A model generated the notes under the pieces. It saw only the letters and a program-made list of their open reading frames with translations, did no database searches and had not been told where the DNA came from. 64,000 nt of DNA from Streptomyces sp. NBC_01283 (GTDB lineage: Bacteria > Actinomycetota > Actinomycetes > Streptomycetales > Streptomycetaceae), in assembly GCF_041435335.1 (NCBI RefSeq), contig NZ_CP108430.1, positions 6,733,001 through 6,797,000 on the forward strand, read 5' to 3'. Position 1 is the first letter of the stretch; each line of letters begins with the position of its first letter. Shown piece after piece: positions 22,091-39,823 of the stretch. A program made the position numbers and the translations under genes.

Positions 22091-22114
22091 CGTACGCCCG
22101 TACGCCCGTACGCC
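22091..22114. repeat. Three tandem CGTACGCC units
   Basis: Exactly three 8-bp copies of CGTACGCC in a row just before the lgt terminator hairpin. Short, probably slippage-derived; no function apparent. Confidence 0.85.
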
Positions 22115-22151
22115 GATGGGGCCGCCGGATCACCGATCCGGCGGCCCCATC
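22115..22151. terminator. Bidirectional terminator between lgt and the CitE gene
   Basis: A perfect 17-bp stem (GATGGGGCCGCCGGATC and its complement) with a 3-nt ACC loop lies between the convergent stops of lgt (22076) and the CitE-like gene (22163). It can act on both transcripts. Confidence 0.88.
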
Positions 22152-22162
22152 GCCATGAACGG

Positions 22163-22996
22163 CTAGAGGCGCCGCCGCGCCAGGTCCAGGACCCGCCGCG
22201 CGCCCTCCACCACGGCCTTGTCCACGAACGTGCCGTCCGGGAGTGCCAGGGCGCCCTCCTGTGTGGTGGACGCCTTGACGACCTGCTCGGCGTGGTCGAT
22301 CTCCTCCGGCGTGGGCAGATAGGCCCGCTCGATGGCGGGGAGCTGGCGGGGGTGGATCGCGGCGCGGCCCAGGAAGCCCAGGGAGCGGCCGTGCGCGCAG
22401 GACGCCGCCAGGCCCCGCAGGTCACGGATGTCGGTGTACACGGACTGCGCGGGCGGTGCCAGGCCCGCGGCCCTGGCGGCCACCACCACCCGCGCACGGG
22501 ACCAGTCGAGGCCCGCGTCGTCACGTACCCCCAGGTCCGCGCGGAGGTCCGCCTCGCCGAGGGAGAGCCCGTGCAGGGCCGGGTGCGCGGTGGCGATGGC
22601 GAAGGCGTGCTCCAGGCCGAGGGCCGATTCGATGAGGGCGTGCAGGGCGGGGGCGCCGCCGTCCGCGGGCGCCGACCGCTCCGCGACACGGACGACGTCG
22701 GTGGGGCAGGTCACCTTGGGCAGGCGAAGACCGGAGACGCCGGGCAGGTGCGCGATCGCCCCGAGGTCGGCATCGGCCAAGGGACCGTCCAGGGCGTTCA
22801 CGCGGACGTGGACCGGGACGGCGGGAGTCTCGGAGAGCAGTTCGGCCGTCGCCGCTCGCGCGTACTCCTTGCGGTCCGGGCCGACCGCGTCCTCCAGGTC
22901 GACGATGACGGCGTCGGCGCCCGCGAGCAGCGCCTTCGCCACCACGGCCGGCCGGTCGCCGGGCGCGTACAACCAGGTCAAGGGCGTGTCTTTCAC
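22163..22996 (-). CDS. CitE/HpcH-type CoA-ester lyase
   Basis: A 277-aa protein of the HpcH/HpaI aldolase superfamily, CitE branch. WLYAPGDRPAVVAKALLAGADAVIVDLEDAV, LRLPKV, HALIESALGLEHAFAIA, LSLGEADLRADLG and GFLGRAAIHPRQL match Mg2+-dependent malyl-, methylmalyl- or citramalyl-CoA lyases. It is the last gene of the ADP-ribosylglycohydrolase operon, its GTG overlapping the CoA-transferase stop (GTGA). The pair CoA-transferase plus CitE lyase suggests activation of a hydroxy-acid to its CoA ester and cleavage to an acyl-CoA and a 2-oxo acid. The exact substrate is unknown. Confidence 0.9.
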   Translation of the reverse strand: MKDTPLTWLYAPGDRPAVVAKALLAGADAVIVDLEDAVGPDRKEYARAATAELLSETPAVPVHVRVNALDGPLADADLGAIAHLPGVSGLRLPKVTCPTDVVRVAERSAPADGGAPALHALIESALGLEHAFAIATAHPALHGLSLGEADLRADLGVRDDAGLDWSRARVVVAARAAGLAPPAQSVYTDIRDLRGLAASCAHGRSLGFLGRAAIHPRQLPAIERAYLPTPEEIDHAEQVVKASTTQEGALALPDGTFVDKAVVEGARRVLDLARRRL

Positions 22997-24180
22997 AGCG
23001 CGCCCTCCTCGCGCAGGTCCGCGATCTCCCCTTCCGTCAGGCCCAGTTCGGTCAGAACCTCCGCCGTGTCCGCTCCATGCGGGCGGCCCGCCCAGTCGAT
23101 CGAGCCCGGGGTCTCCGAGAGGCGGAAGAGGACGTTCTGCATGCGCAGCGGGCCGAGCTCCGGGTCGTCGACGGTGGTGACGGTGTCCAGAGCGGCGTAC
23201 TGGGGATCGGTCATCACGTCCCGTACGTCCTGGATGGGGGCGACCGCCGCCTCCGCCTTCTCGAAGGCCTCGATCACCTCGGCGCGGGTGTGCAGGGCGA
23301 TCCAGCCGCCGACGGCGCCGTCGAGCTCGTCCGCGTGGGCCGCGCGCTCCGCGCCCGTCGCGAACCAGGGTTCGGAGATCAGCTCCGATCGGCCCACCAG
23401 GCGCATCACGCGCTCCGCGATCGACTGGGCCGAAGTGGAGACGGCGACCCAACTGCCGTCCGCGGTGCGGTAGGTGTTGCGGGGCGCGTTGTTCGTGGAG
23501 CGGTTGCCCGTGCGGGGCTGGACGTGGCCGAGCTGGTCGTACCAGGTGGGCTGCGGGCCAAGGACCGTGAGGATCGGCTCGATGATCGCCATGTCCACCA
23601 CCTGGCCCCTGCCGGTCCGGTCACGGGCCGCGAGCGCCGTCATCACCGCGTACGCCGTCGCCAGGCCCGCGATCGAGTCGGCGAGGCCGAAGGGCGGCAG
23701 GGTCGGCGGCCCGTCCGGCTCGCCGGTGATCGCGGCGAAGCCGCTCATCGCCTCCGCGAGGGTGCCGAAGCCGGGGCGGCGGGAGTACGGGCCGAACTGG
23801 CCGAAGCCCGTGACGCGGGTAAGGACGAGACGCGGGTTCGCCTCGCTCAGCTCCTCCCAGCCCAGGTCCCACTTCTCCAGGGTGCCCGGACGGAAGTTCT
23901 CGACGATCACGTCCGCCGTCGCGGCCAGCCGCAGGAGGGTCTCGCGACCGCCGGGAGTGGAGAGGTCGAGGGTCATCGTGCGTTTGTTGCGGCCCAGGAG
24001 CTTCCACCAGAGTCCGACGCCGTCCTTCGACGGGCCGTGCCCACGGGACGGGTCGGGCTTGCGCGGGTGCTCGACCTTGATGACCTCCGCGCCGAAGTCG
24101 CCGAGCATCGTGGCGGCGAGCGGGCCCGCGAAGAGCGTCGCAAGATCGAGGACGCGCAGGCCGCCGAGGGGTGACGTCAT
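22993..24180 (-). CDS. Class III (CaiB/BaiF) CoA-transferase
   Basis: A 395-aa family III CoA-transferase. LGGLRVLDLATLFAGPLAATMLGDFGAEVIKVEHP, GRNKRTMTLDLSTPGGRE, the catalytic-Asp region PPFGLADSIAGLATAYAV and NNAPRNTYRTADGSWVAVS are typical. Such enzymes move CoA between carboxylic acids. ATG 24180 overlaps the ribokinase-family stop (ATGA) and its own stop overlaps the CitE start, so it is translationally coupled on both sides. Likely makes the CoA ester that the downstream lyase splits. Confidence 0.92.
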   Translation of the reverse strand: MTSPLGGLRVLDLATLFAGPLAATMLGDFGAEVIKVEHPRKPDPSRGHGPSKDGVGLWWKLLGRNKRTMTLDLSTPGGRETLLRLAATADVIVENFRPGTLEKWDLGWEELSEANPRLVLTRVTGFGQFGPYSRRPGFGTLAEAMSGFAAITGEPDGPPTLPPFGLADSIAGLATAYAVMTALAARDRTGRGQVVDMAIIEPILTVLGPQPTWYDQLGHVQPRTGNRSTNNAPRNTYRTADGSWVAVSTSAQSIAERVMRLVGRSELISEPWFATGAERAAHADELDGAVGGWIALHTRAEVIEAFEKAEAAVAPIQDVRDVMTDPQYAALDTVTTVDDPELGPLRMQNVLFRLSETPGSIDWAGRPHGADTAEVLTELGLTEGEIADLREEGAL

Positions 24181-25085
24181 GACGCGCCGCCGTTCGTCTG
24201 GGTGTCGATCTCGGAGCGGAACGGCATGGACGCCGACGCCCCCGGGCGCTGGACGGAGAGCGCGGCGGCGGACGACGCCCACGCGAGCGCGTCCGGCACG
24301 GTTCCGCCTTCGGCCAGCGCCACCGCGAGGGTGCCGACGAAGGTGTCGCCGGCGCCGGTCGTGTCGACGGCGGTGACGTGCGGGGCCGCCACCATGACCG
24401 GCTCGGCGTCCCGGGCCGCGTACAGGCTGCCGCGCGAGCCGAGCGTGACGACGACCTCGGGGACCTGGGAGAGGAGCGAGCGGGCGGCGGCGTGCGGGTC
24501 GGTCAGGCCGGTGAGGGTGGCCGCCTCGTGCTCGTTCGGCACCAACAAGTCGATGGCGTCGAGGAGTTCGGGAGGCAGCGGCTGGGCGGGCGCAGGTGTG
24601 AGGACGGTGCGCACGCCGTGCCTGCGGGCGGCCCGCGCGGCGGCGAGCACCCCCTCGACGGGGATCTCCAGCTGGAGCAGCAGGGTGTCGGCGGAGGCGA
24701 TCAGGCCCTCGTCGCCGGGGGCGAGCGCGGTGAGCGTGGCGTTGGCGCCGGGGATGACGACGATGGCGTTGCCGCCCTCGTCGTCGACCACGATGTGCGC
24801 GGTGCCGGTGGTCGCGGTGTCGACGGTGCGCAGGAGGTCGGTGTCGACCCCGGAGTGTTCGAGTGCGCTGCGCAGTTGGGCGCCGAAAGCGTCGGCGCCG
24901 ACCGCGCCGATCATCGACACGGCGTCGGCGCCCGCGCGGGCCGCGGCGACGGCCTGGTTGGCGCCCTTGCCGCCGGGGAGCGTACGGAACTCGCGCCCGG
25001 TGATGGTCTCCCCGCGCTGCGGTGCCTTGGCGACGTACGCGACGAGGTCCATGTTCGTGCTGCCGAGCACGGCGATGTGGGTCAT
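24177..25085 (-). CDS. Ribokinase-family (PfkB) sugar kinase
   Basis: A 302-aa PfkB kinase very like RbsK: IAVLGSTNMDLVAYVAKAPQRGETITGREFRTLPGGKGANQAVAAARAG (first signature), LLVPNEHEAATLTG, and the second signature VTAVDTTGAGDTFVGTLAVALAEGG with the catalytic Asp in GAGD. Ribokinases phosphorylate ribose at O5, and close relatives act on nucleosides or deoxyribose. ATG 25085 overlaps the stop of ADP-ribosylglycohydrolase 1. Its place right after four predicted N-ribosyl hydrolases suggests it phosphorylates the released ribose or riboside. No rbs transporter or RbsD lies nearby. Confidence 0.93.
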   Translation of the reverse strand: MTHIAVLGSTNMDLVAYVAKAPQRGETITGREFRTLPGGKGANQAVAAARAGADAVSMIGAVGADAFGAQLRSALEHSGVDTDLLRTVDTATTGTAHIVVDDEGGNAIVVIPGANATLTALAPGDEGLIASADTLLLQLEIPVEGVLAAARAARRHGVRTVLTPAPAQPLPPELLDAIDLLVPNEHEAATLTGLTDPHAAARSLLSQVPEVVVTLGSRGSLYAARDAEPVMVAAPHVTAVDTTGAGDTFVGTLAVALAEGGTVPDALAWASSAAALSVQRPGASASMPFRSEIDTQTNGGAS

Positions 25086-26449
25086 GGGTGGGGTCTCTCC
25101 TGGGCGAGTGCGGTGGCGAGTTCGGTGGTGAGGTCGGCGAGGGTGTCGAAGCCGGTGCCGTCGAAGCCCGGGACGGAGCTGGCGAGGCGGTTCTTGAGCG
25201 GGGACGTCCAGCGGTCGGGCAGCGCGTCCGGGTGGCCCGCGAGCAGACCCGCGATCGACCCCGCGGTCGCGCCGTTCGAGTCGGTGTCCCAGCCGCCGGA
25301 GACGGCGCGCGTGATGGAGCCGGTGAAGTCGCCGTCGGCGTGGGTGAGGGAGGCGGCCAGGAGGGCGGCGTTGGGGATGACGTGCACCCAGTGGTGGTGG
25401 CCGTAGGCGGCGTGCAGGGTGTCCACGACCCGGTCGAAGTCCCTTTCCCCCGATGCGAGTTGGATGCCGTGGCGAACCGCGCGGGACAGACGTGAGTCCG
25501 GCGGTACGACGGTGAGGCCCGCGCGCAGGCAGTGGTGGACGTCTCCGGTGCCTGCCGCCGCCTCGGAGATGGTGGCCGCCGCGAACATCGCGCCGTACAC
25601 GCCGTTGGCGGTGTGGGTGAGGCACGCGTCGCGGTACGCGCTGTCGGCTGCCGCCGCGGGGGCGCCGGGGTGGGTCCAGCCGTGGACGTCGGCGCGGATC
25701 AGGGCGCCGATCCATTCGCGGAAGGGGTTGTGGTGGGTGGCGGTGTGCGGGGGCTCGATGCCGCCGAGGAGGTTGCGGTAGGCGATGCGTTCGGCGGTGA
25801 AGGTGCGGGCGGCGGGCAGCTCGTCCAGCCAGAGCCTCGCCACGTCCGCGGTGGTGAAGTCCCTGCCGTGGCGCTGGAGGAGACGGAGGTTGAGGAGGGG
25901 GTAGTTGAGGTCGTCGTCCTCGGGCATGCCGTCGATGTTCTCGGCGAGGGAGGTGGGCGCGGAGCGCTTGTTCCAGGGATAGGCCGTGGCGAGCTCCGGG
26001 GGGAGGCCCTTCGCCGTGAACCACGTGGTCAGGGGCCAGTTGCCGGTGGCTTTGGCGAGACTCCTGATGCCTTCCAGCGGGAGCTTTTCCACTGGTTTGC
26101 CCAGGAGGCAGCCCGCTGCCCTGCCCAGCCAGGCGGCGTGCAGGCGGTGGCGCAGGGCCCTTCTTTCCCCGATCCCGCTCCTTCCCGAAACCGCCTGCCG
26201 CGGGGCTCTGTTCTCCGGTGCGGCCCACAACGGGGGGAGCTGGGACAGCTCCGTCAGCAGCTCTTCCGCGAAGGCCCGTAGCTCCGGAGAGGGCGGGGCC
26301 GGGGACGCGCCCGCTCTGGCGGGCGCCAGGTGGCCGCCCGCCGCCAGCCAGCGGGACCGGATCGCCCGCGCGTCCTTGCCCTCCTCCTCCGCCTGGCGCA
26401 GCTCGTGGCCCACCAGGTCCTCCGGCTGGACCCAGGTGAGGCGGATCAC
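25082..26449 (-). CDS. ADP-ribosylglycohydrolase-family protein 1
   Basis: A 455-aa protein from GTG 26449, which overlaps the previous stop (GTGA). About 100 N-terminal residues (WVQPEDLVGHELRQAEEEGKDARAIRSRWLAAGG...) precede the hydrolase domain, which starts at LHAAWLGRAAGCLLGKPVEK. Metal ligands are present: EDDDLNY for the N-terminal Asp motif and SGGWDTDSNGATAGSIAGLLAG for the C-terminal DTD motif. The family removes ADP-ribose from proteins or splits related N-ribosides with two Mg2+ ions. The linker (about residues 86-98, RQAVSGRSGIGERRAL) is encoded by sequence resembling an interspersed repeat. Confidence 0.9.
   Translation of the reverse strand: MIRLTWVQPEDLVGHELRQAEEEGKDARAIRSRWLAAGGHLAPARAGASPAPPSPELRAFAEELLTELSQLPPLWAAPENRAPRQAVSGRSGIGERRALRHRLHAAWLGRAAGCLLGKPVEKLPLEGIRSLAKATGNWPLTTWFTAKGLPPELATAYPWNKRSAPTSLAENIDGMPEDDDLNYPLLNLRLLQRHGRDFTTADVARLWLDELPAARTFTAERIAYRNLLGGIEPPHTATHHNPFREWIGALIRADVHGWTHPGAPAAAADSAYRDACLTHTANGVYGAMFAAATISEAAAGTGDVHHCLRAGLTVVPPDSRLSRAVRHGIQLASGERDFDRVVDTLHAAYGHHHWVHVIPNAALLAASLTHADGDFTGSITRAVSGGWDTDSNGATAGSIAGLLAGHPDALPDRWTSPLKNRLASSVPGFDGTGFDTLADLTTELATALAQERPHP
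26164..26195. repeat. Interspersed-repeat arm inside the ADP-ribosylglycohydrolase 1 gene
   Basis: The stretch TTTCCCCGATCCCGCTCC followed by TTCCCGAAACCGCC closely matches the left arm of the inverted repeat at 43061-43204. Here it lies in frame in the inter-domain linker of a coding sequence. Confidence 0.6.
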
Positions 26450-27633
26450 GGGGTGGCCGTGAGGGCGGCGTACGCCGACTCGTGGGCGCGGCGGCGCCGC
26501 ACGTCGCGGGTGAAGATCTCCCGGGTGACCTCCGTGAGCGTAGCCGCGGGGGCGTGCAGGTCCAGACGGCTCGCCTCCGCGACCGTCTTCGACCACTCGG
26601 GCGGGGCGCCCGACCCCAGGGCGCCGGCGATCGCACCGCTCATCGTCGCGATGGAGTCGCAGTCACGGCCGTAGTTGACCGAGCCGAGCACCGTATGGCG
26701 GTAGTCGCCGTCGCCCACCAGGAGCATGCCGAGCGCGATCGGGAGCTCCTCGATGGAGTGCAGACGGGAGGGGCGGCGGGCGCCGAGGGACGGGGCGCGG
26801 TAGTCCTGGCCGACCGTGTCGAAGGGGATGACGGCGGTGCGCAGGGGGGCCAGTGCCGACTCGAAGTCCCGGTGGTGCGCGGCCACTTCGGCCGCCGACT
26901 CGATCGCGGCGCGCGTTCCGTCCTTCGCGAGGGACAGGGCGGTGTCGATCACCGAGGTCGGTGTCGCGCCCGGCGCGCAGGCCGCCGCCACCGCCGCCGC
27001 GAAGACTCCGGCGGCCTCACGCCCGTACGACGACTGGTGCGCGCCCGCGATGTCCAGGGCCTCGGCGTACGCGGCCGCCGGGTTCGCCGCGTTGACCAGG
27101 CCGACCGGTGCCATGTACATCGAGGCACCGCAGTTGACGATGTTTCCGGTGCCCGCCTCGCGCGGGTCGACGTGGCCGTAGTGGATGCGGGCGACGATCC
27201 ACTTCTCGGCGAGGAAGACGCGGTGCAGCGGAATGGCCTCCGTCTCCAGTTCCGGGATCCAGCGGGGGTTCGTCATGAGGTCGGGGACCAGGTGGTCGGC
27301 GACCGCGTAGGCGTCCAAGTGGTCGCGGACGGTGGCGTACACGCGGATCAGCGCGTGCGTCATCAGGGTGTCGTCGGTGACGTGTCCGTCGCCCTTGTGG
27401 TAGGGCGCGATCGGGCGGGCGGTGCGCCACTGGTCGCCGTTCCAGGGGCCGACGATGCCGTGTACGCGACCGCCGTGCCGTTCGACGATCTGCTCGGGGG
27501 AGTAGCCCTCGACGGGACCGCCGAGTGCGTCTCCGACGGCCGCTCCGACCAGGCAGGCGGTGATGCGCTCGGAGAGGGGCAGGTCGGTGGGGAGCAGCTC
27601 AGTGGCGAGGCCCCGGGGCGTTGGTGACGTCAT
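26446..27633 (-). CDS. ADP-ribosylglycohydrolase-family protein 2
   Basis: A 395-aa full-length family member. N-terminal glycine motif ITACLVGAAVGDALGGPVEGYSPEQIVERHGG, first metal motif DDTLMTHALIRVY, GNIVNCGASMYMAPVGLVNAANP, and C-terminal metal motif VNYGRDCDSIATMSGAIAGALGSG are all intact, so it should be catalytically competent. ATG 27633 has GGGAGGA about 10 nt upstream; the gene overlaps the preceding one by 35 nt and the next by 4 nt. Substrate unknown: ADP-ribosylated protein, ADP-ribose derivatives or an N-riboside are all possible. Confidence 0.92.
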   Translation of the reverse strand: MTSPTPRGLATELLPTDLPLSERITACLVGAAVGDALGGPVEGYSPEQIVERHGGRVHGIVGPWNGDQWRTARPIAPYHKGDGHVTDDTLMTHALIRVYATVRDHLDAYAVADHLVPDLMTNPRWIPELETEAIPLHRVFLAEKWIVARIHYGHVDPREAGTGNIVNCGASMYMAPVGLVNAANPAAAYAEALDIAGAHQSSYGREAAGVFAAAVAAACAPGATPTSVIDTALSLAKDGTRAAIESAAEVAAHHRDFESALAPLRTAVIPFDTVGQDYRAPSLGARRPSRLHSIEELPIALGMLLVGDGDYRHTVLGSVNYGRDCDSIATMSGAIAGALGSGAPPEWSKTVAEASRLDLHAPAATLTEVTREIFTRDVRRRRAHESAYAALTATP

Positions 27634-28930
27634 GTCGGAATTGTCCTCCCGGAGCGCTCAGTTCCGTGGCTGCGAGATGCCCGGCGAGTTCCACCAGGTC
27701 GGTGCCCGCGAGACGGGGGAGCGCGCAGCCGGAGAGGGTGCGGCAGGCGTCGCGCCAGGCCTCGGGGACGGCGGTGGCCGTGCCGAGCGCCCCGGTCAGC
27801 GCCCCGGCCAGGGCGGGGGCGGAGTCGGCGACCCGGGAGAGGCAGGCGGCGGCGGGCACCGCGTCACGGATACGGCCGCGGGCCGCGGTGGTCAGGGCGA
27901 GGGCGACCGGGACGGTCTCGGCGGCGGCGATGCCGTAGCTGTAGACGTGGTCGACGATCTGGTGCTCCAGGAGCGGGACGAGACCGAAGGCGCCGTCCTC
28001 CGGCTGGGTGCGGGCGAGCTTGACGGCGTGCCAGGCGTTGCGGCCGATCTCGGTGTGCTCCGGGAGCTGGGCGAGAGCGGCGTCCACGGTCGCGTCGACG
28101 TCCGCGCCGCCGAGCGCCGCCGCGATCGCCGCGGCCATCGCGCGGGCGCCGTGCACGCCGTCGCCGTCCTGGGTGTAGCGGGCGTCGAACTCGGCCAGGG
28201 CGGCGGCCTGTTCGGGGTCGCCCGGATGCACCAGAGCAAGCACGCAGGCGCGTACGCAGGCGGCGTCGTCGAAGAAGTGGGGGTTGTCGTGGCCGGTGGC
28301 GGGCGGGCGCAGGCCGGTGGCGAGGTTGCCGAGGCCCGCGCGCACGGAGATGCGGGCGCGCAGGGGGAGTACCGCGGACTCGACCTCGGGGGCGCGGGCC
28401 GCCGCCGCGGCGATCTCGCTGGCGAGGGTGTTCCAGGCGAGGTCGAGGGCCGCGCGGACCCGGCGGTCCGGGGACAGCCGGGCGTCGAGGGTCCCGTCCG
28501 CCGCGCGGAGCAGCGACTCGGCGGCGAAGGCGGCCCATTCGGCGTCGTCGGAGGGGCCCAGGCGCAGGGGTTCCGGGGGCTGGTTCAGCGCGATGGGTAC
28601 GGGGAGGGTGGTGGTGGCGTTCTGCTCGGCGAAGGTGTCCAGCTCGCGGGTCAGCCTGCGGGTCCACTCGGGCATGCGGGCGGCGCGGTGCCTGGCAGCG
28701 GGCCATCCTGCGGCGTCGCCTGCGGCGAGGCCGAGGAGGAGCCCCTCGATGCGGGACCCGGGCGCCTCGCTTTGACTGGCACCCGGCATCAAGGGCTGTG
28801 CCCACCCTGCCCACCCTCCCCCTGCGGAACGCCTGCCCACAGCGGGTCCGGCAGCGGGAGCCGCTGCGGGGTGAACGGGTGGGTGGGCGGGAGAAATCCG
28901 CCGCGAAGCGGCGGGCTCGTTCGCGCTCAC
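27599..28930 (-). CDS. ADP-ribosylglycohydrolase-family protein 3, degenerate metal site
   Basis: A 443-aa protein from GTG 28930 (GTGA overlap with gene 4). The first about 55 residues are a low-complexity Ala/Pro/Gly extension (HPPVHPAAAPAAGPAVGRR). The domain begins SRIEGLLLGLAAGDAAGWP, has GPSDDAEWAAF at the first Asp motif, and ACLSRVADSAPALAGALTGAL where the others have GRDADT or WDTDS. The first Asp of that C-terminal DxD is thus replaced by Val. Either activity is altered or this is a non-catalytic partner of its neighbours. Confidence 0.88.
   Translation of the reverse strand: MSANEPAASRRISPAHPPVHPAAAPAAGPAVGRRSAGGGWAGWAQPLMPGASQSEAPGSRIEGLLLGLAAGDAAGWPAARHRAARMPEWTRRLTRELDTFAEQNATTTLPVPIALNQPPEPLRLGPSDDAEWAAFAAESLLRAADGTLDARLSPDRRVRAALDLAWNTLASEIAAAAARAPEVESAVLPLRARISVRAGLGNLATGLRPPATGHDNPHFFDDAACVRACVLALVHPGDPEQAAALAEFDARYTQDGDGVHGARAMAAAIAAALGGADVDATVDAALAQLPEHTEIGRNAWHAVKLARTQPEDGAFGLVPLLEHQIVDHVYSYGIAAAETVPVALALTTAARGRIRDAVPAAACLSRVADSAPALAGALTGALGTATAVPEAWRDACRTLSGCALPRLAGTDLVELAGHLAATELSAPGGQFRHDVTNAPGPRH
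28801..28892. repeat. GC-rich inverted repeat in the 5' part of ADP-ribosylglycohydrolase gene 3
   Basis: Arms rich in CCCACCC (28801-28818) and GGGTGGG (28877-28892) flank about 60 bp containing AGCGGG/CCGCT pairs. It encodes the low-complexity N-terminal extension and resembles intergenic repeats I associate with Streptomyces genomes. Membership of a repeat family is inferred. Confidence 0.45.
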
Positions 28931-29925
28931 GAGACCCCCCGGTCAGAAACAAGCAACTCCGCGACATCCAGCACATGGTGACCCCGCATGGAAGGGAGAC
29001 AGCTGCCCCGCGCAGGGCCGATCGCCGCCGCCCACGGCGGGGGAATCGCCGAAGCCCCACAGGACGCGCCGGACAATGCCCCGGCCACAGCGGCAGTCGT
29101 ATCCGCGTCCCGCCCCATGTTCACGGCGGTCAGCACCGCGTCGGGGAACCGGCCGGAGGCCGCCGCGTACGCCCCGAAGGCGAGCCCCACCGCCTCGGGG
29201 GCGAGGTCGGTCCAGGGATAGCCGCCGATCACCACCGCGGAGCGCACCGCGCGCTCGCCCCGGTGGGCCACCGCCACCGCCCGCCGCAGCGAACGCGACG
29301 TCCAGCAGTCCTCCGGGATGACGGCCAGGGCAGCGGCCACCACGGAGTCCACCGGCGCCCCGCCCATCGCCGCCGAAACCCCCGCGGCCACCGCCTGCCC
29401 GCCGTAGATTCCCTCGCCGTCATGGCTGACCGAGCCGTCGATCGCGACGAGCCGGGCCGCTTCGGCGGGCCGCCCCGCGGCGAAGACCCCGAATGGCGCG
29501 GCCCGCATCGCGAGGCCGTCGCTCCACGCGTGCCGGTGCTGCGCCGAGATGGGCGCCGCGAGGCCGCGGCGCAGGTTCTCCAGGGTGCCGCGTTCGCTGA
29601 AGCCCGCGCCCCGGAAGGGGCCCTCGTCGAGGTCGGCGATCCACTCGTGCCAGGCCGCCTCGACATGCGCGACGGTCAGCGCCGAGCCGTGCCGTGCGAG
29701 CAGCAGCCCCGAGAAGATCGCGTACTCGGTGTCGTCCGTGCCCGAGGGATGCTCGGCGACGTAACCGGTGATGCGTCCCCAGCGGCGGCGGATCTCCGAC
29801 GGCTTCATGTTCTCGGCGGGCGCGCCCAGCGCGTCGCCGACCGCGAGGCCGAGAAGGGCGCCACGCGCCCGCTCTCTCAAGCCGATCGCGCCGGTCACTC
29901 CTGTCACACCGGTCAAGCCCGTCAT
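28927..29925 (-). CDS. ADP-ribosylglycohydrolase-family protein 4
   Basis: A 332-aa compact family member and the first gene of the operon. ATG 29925 has a GGGAGG 5-6 nt upstream; the upstream GTG/ATG at 29970 lacks one. After a GVTGVTGAIG start comes ERARGALLGLAVGDALGAPAE, then ITGYVAEHPSGTDDTEYAIFSGLLL (first metal motif), GSVSHDGEGIYGGQAVAAGVSAAMGG, and VNMGRDADTTAAVAGALSGA (second metal motif). All metal ligands are present. The stop overlaps gene 3. Divergent from the VIT1 transporter gene. Confidence 0.93.
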   Translation of the reverse strand: MTGLTGVTGVTGAIGLRERARGALLGLAVGDALGAPAENMKPSEIRRRWGRITGYVAEHPSGTDDTEYAIFSGLLLARHGSALTVAHVEAAWHEWIADLDEGPFRGAGFSERGTLENLRRGLAAPISAQHRHAWSDGLAMRAAPFGVFAAGRPAEAARLVAIDGSVSHDGEGIYGGQAVAAGVSAAMGGAPVDSVVAAALAVIPEDCWTSRSLRRAVAVAHRGERAVRSAVVIGGYPWTDLAPEAVGLAFGAYAAASGRFPDAVLTAVNMGRDADTTAAVAGALSGASCGASAIPPPWAAAIGPARGSCLPSMRGHHVLDVAELLVSDRGVS

Positions 29926-30151
29926 GCTGTGCCTCCCTGGTGCCGAGACGTGTGGCTGTATCCCTGCCACGCGGCACCCCTGACGCGAGCATCCGCACCG
30001 CCGACGTCACCCCTCAGGACGCATGCGGTCACCGGTTCGAGGAACCCCCGTTCACATGCGCGCAAGCGCAGGTAAGTACGGCCTTCCTTGCTGGCGAGAG
30101 CGTTTTTTCGCGCGTACTTTCGAGATCGTCCAAGTACTGAGGGGGCCCATC
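29926..30151. promoter_or_regulatory. Divergent promoter region, ADP-ribosylglycohydrolase operon / VIT1 gene
   Basis: A 226-bp spacer that must drive the seven-gene minus-strand operon and the plus-strand transporter gene. It is AT-richer near 30075-30135 (GTAAGTACGG, GCGTTTTTTCGCG, CAAGTACTGAGG). I looked for a DtxR/DmdR iron box and did not find a convincing one. Confidence 0.45.
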
Positions 30152-37512: not shown

Positions 37513-38814
37513 ATGAAGCGACGGGTCATCGCGGCAGGTATCGCCATGACGCTCGGACTGACCGCGACGGCATGCGGCAGCGATGACGGGAGCGACAGCG
37601 GCGACAAGGCGACCGACGGCAAGGGCAAGACCCTCACCGTATGGATCATGGAGGGGACCAACCCCGACGCCAGGCCCTTCTTCAAGGAGGCCGGGAAGGC
37701 GTTCCAGAAGAAGACCGGCGCCAAGATCCACGTCGAGTACCAGCAGTGGGCCACCGCGCAGAAGAAGTTCACCACCGCCATCGAGGGCGGCGAGGACCAG
37801 GTCCCGGACGTGGCCGAGGTCGGTACGACCTGGGTGCCGCAGTTCGCCGAGACCGGCGCCCTCGTCGACGTGACCGACGACGTCAAGAAGTCGGGCCTGG
37901 GCGGCGACCTCGTCGAGGGCCTCAAGGACGCGGGCACGCTCGACGGCAAGCAGTACGGCATGCCCTGGTACGCGGGCGTGCGCGGCATCGTGTACCGCAA
38001 GGACATCTTCGAGAAGCACAAGCTGAAGGCCCCGACCACCTGGAAGGAGCTCCAGTCCACGGCGAAGACGCTGAAGGACAAGGAGCCCGGGATGATCCCC
38101 TTCCCGGTCGCGGGCGGCGCCGAAATGTACGCCACCCCCTTCATCTGGGGCGCCGGAGGCGAACTCGCCACCGAGCAGGGCGGCAAGTGGAAGTCCGGCA
38201 TCAACTCGCCCGAGGCCGTGAAGGGCATCGAGTTCTACACGGGCCTCGCCACCAAGGACAAGGTCTCCCCGGCCAAGGTCAACACCTGGACGGAGAAGGA
38301 GGTCGGCGACGCCTGGGGCAAGGGCCAGGTCGCCATGTCCGTCAACGGCAACTGGACCCCGAAGGCCATCGTCGAGGCCAACCCCGACCTCAAGGGAAAG
38401 CTCGGCGCCGTGCCGATCCCCGGCCAGACCGGCGGCATGAGCAAGTCCTTCCTCGGCGGCTCCTACCTGTCCACGTTCAACACGGACAAGAAGGACCTCG
38501 CCTGGGAGTTCGTGAAGATGCTGACCACGGGTGACTTCGCGGCCAAGTGGGCCGAGGAGACCAACTACTTCCCGGGCCAGAACTCCGAGCTGAAGAAGAT
38601 CGAGGCGAAGAAGGACCCGCTGGTCGAGCCGTTCGCCAAGCAGATGCTGGAGGCCGGCGCGACCGTCCCCAAGACCAAGGCGTACGGCGAGATCCAGGCA
38701 TCGAAGGTCATCCCCGGCATGGTGCAGTCCATCCTGACCGGGAAGTCCTCCGTCCAGGAAGCGGCGGACAAGGCCGCCAAGGACATGGACGCGATCTTCG
38801 CCAAGGACAAGTAG
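37513..38814 (+). CDS. Sugar ABC transporter, lipoprotein substrate-binding protein
   Basis: A 433-aa family 1 extracellular solute-binding protein. Signal peptide and lipobox end at Cys 21 (MTLGLTATACGS), so Lgt should lipidate it. The mature part shows LTVWIMEGTNPDARPFFKEAGKAFQKKTGAKIHVEYQQW, DVAEVGTTWVPQFAETGALVDVTD, YGMPWYAGVRGIVYRKDIF and a C-terminal helical lobe, as in maltose/cellobiose/chitobiose-binding proteins. First gene of a three-gene importer. The neighbouring chitosanase and the dre-like core hint at an aminosugar oligosaccharide, but sequence alone does not fix the ligand. Confidence 0.93.
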   Translation: MKRRVIAAGIAMTLGLTATACGSDDGSDSGDKATDGKGKTLTVWIMEGTNPDARPFFKEAGKAFQKKTGAKIHVEYQQWATAQKKFTTAIEGGEDQVPDVAEVGTTWVPQFAETGALVDVTDDVKKSGLGGDLVEGLKDAGTLDGKQYGMPWYAGVRGIVYRKDIFEKHKLKAPTTWKELQSTAKTLKDKEPGMIPFPVAGGAEMYATPFIWGAGGELATEQGGKWKSGINSPEAVKGIEFYTGLATKDKVSPAKVNTWTEKEVGDAWGKGQVAMSVNGNWTPKAIVEANPDLKGKLGAVPIPGQTGGMSKSFLGGSYLSTFNTDKKDLAWEFVKMLTTGDFAAKWAEETNYFPGQNSELKKIEAKKDPLVEPFAKQMLEAGATVPKTKAYGEIQASKVIPGMVQSILTGKSSVQEAADKAAKDMDAIFAKDK

Positions 38815-38833
38815 GCAAGGGCGAGCCGGCACC

Positions 38834-39823
38834 GTGAAAGACACGCTGATCGGCGACGGGCCCAAAGAAACGAAGGCCCGTCGCCCCGCCCCCCGTCCGG
38901 AACACGAAACGGCCCTCCGCAAGAAGAAGCTGATCGGCCTCACCCGGCCGTGGCTGCTCCTCGCACCCTCCCTCCTGGTCCTCGCGGGCCTGCTCCTCTG
39001 GCCGCTGATCCAGGTCGGCAAGCTCTCCATGCAGGACTACGCCGTCAAGTTCGGCGGCGGAGTGGGCACGTACACGGGATTCGACCACTACACCGACCTG
39101 CTCGGCAGTGCACTCCTGTGGAAGACGGTCCTGCCCAACACGGCGTTCTTCGCGATCGCCTGCGTCGGCCTCACCGTCGCCCTCGGCACGCTCGTCGCTC
39201 TGCTCCTCAACCGCCTCGGCCCGGCCTGGCGGCTCATCTGCTCCATCGCCGTCCTCGCGGCCTGGGCGATGCCCGCCGTCACCGGCACGTACGTCTGGAT
39301 CTGGCTCTTCCAGCCGCAGGACGGCATGGTCAGCCAGATCGCGGGCTCGATGGGGCTCATCGATCCCGAGACCACCAACTGGTTCACCGAGCGCGGGCCG
39401 TTCTACGCGATCGCGACCCTGAACGTCGTCCACCACGGCTTCCCGTTCGTCGCCATCACCGTCCTCGCCGGCCTGATGACGATTCCCAAGGAGCTCTACG
39501 AGGCGGGCGAGCTGGACGGCGCCAACGCCTGGCAGCGGTTCTGGAGGATCACGGTGCCGACGATCAAGCCCGTCTTCCTCGTCGTGACCATCCTCTCCAC
39601 CATCTGGGACTTCAAGGTCTTCACCCAGATCTATCTGATGCCGGGCGGCGACGGCGCCAACGAAGAGGTCTACAACCTCGGCGTCTTCTCCTACATCCAG
39701 GCCTTCGCCAAGAACGACTACGGCACGGGCGCGGCGGCCGCGGTACTGCTGACCCTGCTGCTCCTGGCCATCACGGTTGTCTACATCCGCACGCTGTTCC
39801 GGCAGGGGGAGGAGGACCTGTGA
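38834..39823 (+). CDS. Sugar ABC transporter permease (MalF type)
   Basis: A 329-aa inner-membrane permease with six helices after a charged cytoplasmic start. The EAA loop that contacts the ATPase is ELYEAGELDGANAWQRFWRITVPTIKP. GTG 38834 follows the binding-protein stop by 19 bp. Its stop overlaps the second permease (GTGA). No ATP-binding gene is in the cluster; in Streptomyces such importers commonly share the MsiK ATPase encoded elsewhere. Confidence 0.93.
   Translation: MKDTLIGDGPKETKARRPAPRPEHETALRKKKLIGLTRPWLLLAPSLLVLAGLLLWPLIQVGKLSMQDYAVKFGGGVGTYTGFDHYTDLLGSALLWKTVLPNTAFFAIACVGLTVALGTLVALLLNRLGPAWRLICSIAVLAAWAMPAVTGTYVWIWLFQPQDGMVSQIAGSMGLIDPETTNWFTERGPFYAIATLNVVHHGFPFVAITVLAGLMTIPKELYEAGELDGANAWQRFWRITVPTIKPVFLVVTILSTIWDFKVFTQIYLMPGGDGANEEVYNLGVFSYIQAFAKNDYGTGAAAAVLLTLLLLAITVVYIRTLFRQGEEDL

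Follow-up and report, generated by a model that had tools for sequence, protein, structure and literature searches.

LacI-controlled operons for the utilization of glycosides taken up by a CUT1-type ATP-binding cassette (ABC) importer are of a known kind, and pairs of a coenzyme A (CoA) transferase and a malyl-CoA or citramalyl-CoA lyase are known from the 3-hydroxypropionate bicycle and from itaconate degradation. Here we describe a block of seven genes (G1 to G7) in Streptomyces sp. NBC_01283 which combines four members of the ADP-ribosylglycohydrolase family with a ribokinase, a CoA-transferase and a CitE-type lyase. The block lies in a stretch of 64,000 nucleotides (contig NZ_CP108430.1, positions 6,733,001 to 6,797,000), referred to below as the window. 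We consider it probable that the block represents the enzyme half of an operon that serves to break down an imported glycoside. This glycoside would most likely be a hydroxy-carboxylic acid conjugated to a ribofuranosyl or another pentofuranosyl group. SCO2028 to SCO2031 of S. coelicolor have been listed as uncharacterized DraG/ARH homologues (PMC9411070). Another source lists SCO2028 to SCO2030 among the ADP-ribosyl hydrolase homologues and takes the number of putative genes of this type in Streptomyces as a sign of 'a lively ADP-ribosylation metabolism' (PMC5087735). No activity on uracil-linked ADP-ribose (U-ADPr) was observed for SCO2028 and SCO2030 (PMC13036486), and SCO2038 is trpX (PMC5036795). 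SCO2028 to SCO2031 would be the orthologues of G1 to G4, since they are four consecutive family members near trp genes. No description of the operon was found among the papers listed in literature searches.

Gene content and conservation of the block

The seven open reading frames are located on the minus strand (positions 22163-29925 of the window) and adjacent genes overlap at all six junctions, by 35 nt at G2/G3 and by 4 nt at the other five; the coordinates agree with what the initial annotation had reported. The products of G1 (28927-29925, ATG start at 29925; 332 amino acids, compact), G2 (27599-28930, GTG start at 28930; 443 amino acids, N-extended), G3 (26446-27633, ATG start at 27633; 395 amino acids) and G4 (25082-26449, GTG start at 26449; 455 amino acids, N-extended) match ADP_ribosyl_GH (PF03747) with 202, 124, 162 and 162 bits, respectively, against a gathering cut-off of 26.2. 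G5 (24177-25085, ATG start at 25085) encodes a ribokinase of the PfkB type, G6 (22993-24180, ATG start at 24180) a family III (CaiB/Frc) CoA-transferase (PF02515, CoA_transf_3; 414 bits) and G7 (22163-22996, GTG start at 22996) a CitE-type C-C lyase (PF03328, HpcH_HpaI; 122 bits). The same four hydrolases, ribokinase, CoA-transferase and lyase had been named from the sequence alone, and Pfam agrees, as does NCBIfam for G5. The host genome (9.6 Mb) contains eight ADP_ribosyl_GH genes, four of which are those of the block.

The seven genes are presumably co-transcribed. The overlaps appear to exceed what chance would give, since overlaps of 4 nt recur in relatives at G6/G7 (47/62), G4/G5 (37/51), G1/G2 (32/51), G2/G3 (29/53), G3/G4 (36/78) and G5/G6 (19/26), and between G6 and the gene 5' of it where this is G4 (12/13) or the gene for C12, a protein described below (20/23). 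These are raw counts without a random control, for which the start nearest to the stop was chosen, and this choice favours short distances.

Locus counts are based on a scan of named genomes with an alignment of G3, the query for relatives, from which the best 80 loci of 556 relatives were taken; 61 of these 80 loci are at least 19.8 kb long and were used for counting. Loci with G3, and the lineage leading the query, are therefore over-represented in this sample. G3 is present in 61/61 by construction, G4 in 60, G1 and G2 in 43 each, G5 in 45, and G6 and G7 in 55 each. Gene order is collinear in 59 of the 61 loci, the exceptions being L083 (different order) and L109 (one extra permease match). 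G4 is matched in 48 of the 61 Streptomyces genomes (E <= 0.001, paralogues included) and, at E <= 1e-40, in 52 of the 296 genomes at class level. Forty neighbourhoods picked by hand from these matches show the block in other families and at other chromosomal places; three of them (L076-L078) contain G4-like paralogues only. The block is very likely real, conserved and a single unit, and the earlier proposal of one functional unit is strongly supported by the way it is held together in relatives, G6 and G7 included; a break-up of the block in most relatives, named beforehand as an argument against a single pathway, was not observed.

Several loci deserve separate mention. The block is broken up in the Streptomyces locus L052 (genome G012), where G2 and G3 are together and a G4 match lies about 37 kb off, and about 2.5 kb of unidentified sequence separates G3 and G4 in two Kribbella loci (L138, L150). 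Contigs of metagenome-assembled genomes (MAGs) of Trueperaceae (Deinococcota) carry these genes as well (L095, L152); provided that these contigs are binned correctly, this points to transfer between phyla. Two titles look wrong: G3 of L080, a MAG titled 'Bifidobacterium breve', is 87% identical to that of L079, an uncultured lake actinobacterium, and L132, titled 'Sphaerisporangium cinnabarinum' ATCC 31213, groups within Cellulosimicrobium.

A LacI-type regulator and a sugar importer head the related operons

The block of the window is located at the trp/glt site and has no adjacent LacI gene or importer. In all 42 loci off this site the block is headed by a LacI gene, two permease genes and a gene for a sugar-type binding protein (SBP_bac_1). 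Among the 19 loci at the trp/glt site the importer is absent from 18, L136 being the sole locus that keeps it, and LacI is kept in L136 and L149 only. The lineage of the window appears to have lost the neighbouring regulator and importer. Because related operons start with LacI and a CUT1-type importer, the substrate is probably a glycoside from outside the cell.

The inverted repeat GTAAACGTTTAC was found in 33 of 233 upstream regions and GGAAACGTTTCC in 18 of 233; among the regions listed, they stand 5' of LacI. The looser pattern G.AA.CG.TT.C occurs in 65 of 72 LacI upstream regions compared to 0 of 161 other upstream regions; it was set after viewing the data and without a shuffled control, and the 72 LacI loci include a few duplicates. 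The repeat may well be the LacI operator. Allowing up to two mismatches, no match to the 16-base site CTGKAAACGTTTMCAG was found anywhere in the genome of NBC_01283, and no LacI-type repeat was found 5' of G1, in the divergent intergenic region of the minus-strand block (29926-30151) that faces a VIT1 gene and, behind it, gltB (Pfam). Elsewhere in this genome no convincing LacI orthologue was found (best 38% identity).

Two importers of the same genome were considered as the missing one. A CUT1 importer closely related to that of the operons is encoded 4.3 Mb from the block (G000:C1:2423685-2426679, L175; binding protein 62%, permease 74%), with no LacI gene adjacent. Within the genus it is present in 32 of 43 genomes with the block and in 8 of 18 without (Fisher p 0.027). 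Initially regarded as the moved importer, it was downgraded to a paralogue, because this co-occurrence is weak and because in genome G059 a copy near the block (64%) coexists with a copy on another contig (84%). The window itself contains a sugar-type ABC system (SBP_bac_1 and BPD_transp_1) downstream of gltB (37513-39820). It was rejected as the missing importer, its binding protein being 27% identical, over partial length, to the type found in the operons.

These findings bear on the substrate proposed in the initial annotation, which was ADP-ribose or another N-riboside. ADP-ribose is not supported as the substrate: the importer and LacI are present in 42/42 off-site blocks, a ribokinase needs free ribose and there is no Nudix gene among the seven. 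The broader alternative is salvage of ADP-ribose, nicotinamide adenine dinucleotide or nucleosides, with hydrolysis of an N-riboside and recycling of the ribose. The ribokinase within the operon would fit such a route, and so would the presence of a nucleoside hydrolase gene (L076) or of a Nudix gene (L184) in the vicinity of G4-like paralogues. However, a Nudix enzyme acting on ADP-ribose yields ribose 5-phosphate directly, which makes a ribokinase superfluous; the importer belongs to the CUT1 sugar type and not to the Bmp type, the one known for nucleosides; and it is not evident what a CoA-transferase and a lyase would do with purine or pyrimidine bases. We consider salvage improbable as an explanation of the block.

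The paralogues have surroundings of their own. The G4-like paralogue of L184 (8490-10082; 45%), in the same genome, adjoins the Nudix gene and makes a more plausible ADP-ribose salvage pair. That of L076 is part of a sugar cluster with the nucleoside hydrolase, a ROK-type regulator, GH36 and MocA-type oxidoreductases, and that of L077 lies near a ribokinase-like gene (42% to G5), together with open reading frames whose products, by eye, resemble an ABC importer of the oligopeptide type, an aldolase of the DapA family and a sialidase.

Three hydrolases with intact catalytic residues and one probable pseudoenzyme

The magnesium ligands and the catalytic Glu are conserved in three of the four hydrolases. 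The G1 alignment has [T/S]DD and DxDT in 86/86 sequences and the catalytic Glu in 86/86; the G3 alignment has TDDT and the catalytic Glu in 115/115 and DxDS in 114/115, with one gap; and the G4 alignment has EDDD and the catalytic Glu in 99/99 and DTDS in 98/99. Matches from five non-Streptomyces families include the N-extension of G4, and these were aligned. From these residues G1, G3 and G4 are predicted to be catalytically competent. In G2 both the catalytic Glu and the first Asp of the C-terminal DxD are found in 0/67 sequences and the first Asp pair is kept in 65/67, so that G2 is very probably an inactive protein under constraint, a conserved pseudoenzyme. Single mutants in magnesium ligands of hARH1 and LchARH3 are reported to lose activity (PMC6309922). 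The initial annotation had listed four differently built hydrolases, one of them degenerate. A degenerate member does exist; if that list follows the gene order, however, it is G2 and not G3, which keeps both metal ligands and Glu.

Similarity to characterized family members is low. The best scores against the DraG and Tri1 equivalog models (75.7 and 45.7 bits) are below their cut-offs of 337 and 490. In a sequence search against PDB the best match of G1 is DraG (68 bits), G3 scores at most 33 bits, and G4 gave no match at E 0.001. In LchARH3 the pyrophosphate of ADP-ribose is bound by a site comprising Gly138, His168 and Asn137, according to the same source, from which the roles of ARH residues were taken (PMC6309922). 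The Gly is kept in G1, G3 and G4, and the His in 73 of 86 G1 sequences and in all aligned G3 and G4 sequences. At the Asn position G1 and G2 have Asp, G3 has Cys, as does ARH1 (register of G3 set by eye), and G4 has Ile. The idea that all four hydrolases are without the GNG phosphate loop was dropped, since G3 has Cys-Gly like ARH1 and the Gly is still present in both G1 and G4.

The family name and fold, the partly kept Gly and His, and the publication of the S. coelicolor homologues as DraG/ARH homologues all speak for a function in which the hydrolases remove ADP-ribose from modified proteins or nucleic acids and the other three genes are passengers. Against it stand the LacI gene and CUT1-type importer of all 42 off-site blocks, the linkage to a CoA-transferase and a lyase, and the finding that Pfam recognizes no ADP-ribosyltransferase domain among the seven genes. 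SCO2028 and SCO2030 were moreover inactive on U-ADPr, a single substrate (PMC13036486). We regard reversal of ADP-ribosylation as unlikely, and as the least probable of the alternatives discussed here.

G1 and G2 occur together and alternate with C12

G1 and G2 are both present in 43 of the 61 loci and both absent from 18; in no locus does one occur alone. In a larger set of 94 loci, which includes four duplicates, both are present in 74, neither in 18 and one alone in two (L052 and L053), in which further block genes are missing or split. As G2 is hardly ever found without G1, the simplest idea is that the two would form a complex of an active and an inactive subunit.

Lineages without the pair often encode C12, a protein of about 620-780 amino acids. 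Its predicted model (predicted local distance difference test score 76, predicted template-modelling (TM) score 0.82) has a barrel similar to those of glycoside hydrolase (GH) families GH129 and GH13, with Foldseek TM-scores of 0.26-0.34 in the rows shown, and an FGE-sulfatase-type domain was detected in the one copy scanned. The 42 off-site loci contain G1-G2 only (22), C12 only (18) or both (2), with none lacking both; in the larger set of 59 off-site loci the numbers are 31 (G1-G2 only), 18 (C12 only), 9 (both) and 1 (neither). This alternation across loci suggests that G1-G2 and C12 perform a related or equivalent glycosidic cut; it may partly mirror phylogeny, with some lineages holding both.

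The ribokinase and the CoA branch

G5 scores 327.1 bits against the ribokinase equivalog model TIGR02152 (cut-off 299.65) and, in a scan of the genome, is the only gene above this cut-off (326.7, the next-best scoring 285.3); against a second ribokinase model, NF008353, it is below the cut-off (278.2 compared to 341). Asp168 of G6 is kept in 15/15 aligned sequences, and we take it to correspond to the Asp that is catalytic in formyl-CoA transferase; this Asp and the PF02515 score identify G6 as a putative family III CoA-transferase. Arg65, Glu123 and Asp150 of G7, which are presumably the residues expected for activity, are likewise kept in 15/15. Both G6 and G7 are below all NCBIfam equivalog cut-offs compared, the models nearest to G7 being RipC_Ccl (163 compared to 375) and citE (152 compared to 443). 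Ribose is proposed as the sugar because of G5 alone, and an acid as the other moiety because of G6-G7 alone.

G6 and G7 are inseparable: both are present in 55 of the 61 loci and both are missing from six. All six genomes with a block lacking them (6/6) have a sister pair side by side elsewhere. In an unrooted tree these detached pairs form their own clade (100/98) among the linked ones; the suggestion that they are moved orthologues is unsupported, given this separate clade. Contexts of five detached pairs were fetched, and Pfam analysis of ten neighbours from four of them identified GntR/FCD regulators (L191, L193, L194), DctM (L194, L195) and CUT2-type transporter genes (L191, L193). On its own the pair may serve the use of organic acids or sugar acids, and such a role is what its position in the operon would require if an acid is part of the imported conjugate.

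The solitary pairs with their own clade and the six blocks without G6-G7 are what would be expected if the operon combined two pathways, one for a glycoside (importer and G1-G5) and an unrelated one for an organic acid (G6-G7). Against such a combination, 55 of 61 blocks in two phyla keep both genes, at the end of the block except for C12 in L152, and G6 often overlaps by 4 nt with the preceding gene, be it G4 (12/13) or C12 (20/23). Two unrelated pathways are the least improbable of the alternatives, still an unlikely one.

Flanking sequences of the block

An 18-bp hairpin (22114-22152) is located between G7 and a convergent lgt gene (LGT by Pfam). The region 22100-22170 folds with -50.7 kcal/mol (z -5.96), and the hairpin is likely a bidirectional terminator; it is absent from the output of the terminator scan because it has no T-run. 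A promoter and terminator consensus scan, whose consensus fits Streptomyces poorly, found none in the block, including its interior.

Proposed function and comparison with known systems

We propose that the block likely belongs to an operon for the catabolism of a sugar conjugate taken up by the cell, with a ribosyl-hydroxyacid conjugate as a working guess for the substrate. In relatives off the trp/glt site the conjugate would be imported by the CUT1-type ABC importer under control of LacI. Glycosidases of the ADP-ribosylglycohydrolase fold, with G3 and G4 as the core, would then cut it, and G1 with its inactive partner G2 would make a further cut, this pair being replaced or joined by the GH-like C12 in other lineages. 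G5 would convert released ribose into ribose 5-phosphate, G6 would load the acid with CoA, and G7 would cleave the acyl-CoA to give an oxo-acid together with acetyl-CoA or one of its homologues. The substrate class and each reaction are predictions. The remaining part of the earlier proposal, another riboside of which part of the carbon enters as acyl-CoA, stays the best reading of the gene set, with the qualification that the sugar could be another pentose.

More tentatively, at somewhat below even confidence, the operon may be widespread and new to the literature found, with ADP-ribosylglycohydrolase-fold proteins as nutritional glycosidases for an extracellular ribosyl-hydroxyacid conjugate and with an obligate active/inactive G1-G2 pair that a GH-like barrel protein can replace. 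SCO2028 to SCO2031 would then be members of such an operon and would not act on ADP-ribosylated targets.

Several points weigh against the proposed catabolic function. The search for loci was made via G3 and kept the best 80 of 556. The ribokinase is absent from 16 of 61 loci, which leaves ribose unproven, and G6 and G7 are absent from six of 61 blocks. Replacement of G1-G2 by C12 is not strict, as both are present in 9 and neither in 1 of 59 loci. The repeat was defined post hoc and is missing 5' of 7 of the 72 LacI genes, and the unlinked importer paralogue tracks the block weakly in the genus. Residues of the ADP-ribose site of ARH1 and ARH3 are partly kept in G1, G3 and G4, so that these proteins may bind ADP-ribose. 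SCO2028 and SCO2030 are the only S. coelicolor homologues named in the assay in the accessible text, and U-ADPr, on which they were inactive, is the substrate concerned (PMC13036486). The putative activities and substrate of G1 to G7 are predicted from sequence and context.

If the block is catabolic, four of the eight ADP_ribosyl_GH members of the genome have another job, and a set of nutritional glycosidases has arisen from a fold known from ADP-ribosylation enzymes. This calls for caution in annotating PF03747 proteins as modification erasers. The operon also offers a testable substrate hunt, via the binding protein and the LacI effector, and a natural pseudoenzyme pair.

Compared to known systems, G1, G3 and G4 share the Pfam family, the di-magnesium ligands and the catalytic Glu with DraG, ARH1 and ARH3, and differ in their weak or missing PDB matches, in scores that fall well short of the cut-offs of the DraG and Tri1 equivalog models and in the context of a sugar-import operon. 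In relatives, the order of a LacI gene first, then two permeases and SBP_bac_1, followed by hydrolases and a sugar kinase, is that of LacI-CUT1 glycoside operons; here, however, the hydrolases are of the ADP-ribosylglycohydrolase family, one partner is a pseudoenzyme and a CoA-transferase/lyase pair is added, and the copy in the window, with no adjacent regulator and importer, does not show this organization. G6 and G7 resemble pairs of a CoA-transferase and a malyl-CoA or citramalyl-CoA lyase in the expected activation of a hydroxy acid with CoA followed by retro-Claisen cleavage, and in the expected residues, which are kept; they differ from these pairs in scoring below the equivalog cut-offs, in the lack of an itaconyl-CoA hydratase among the seven genes and in being linked to candidate glycosidases.

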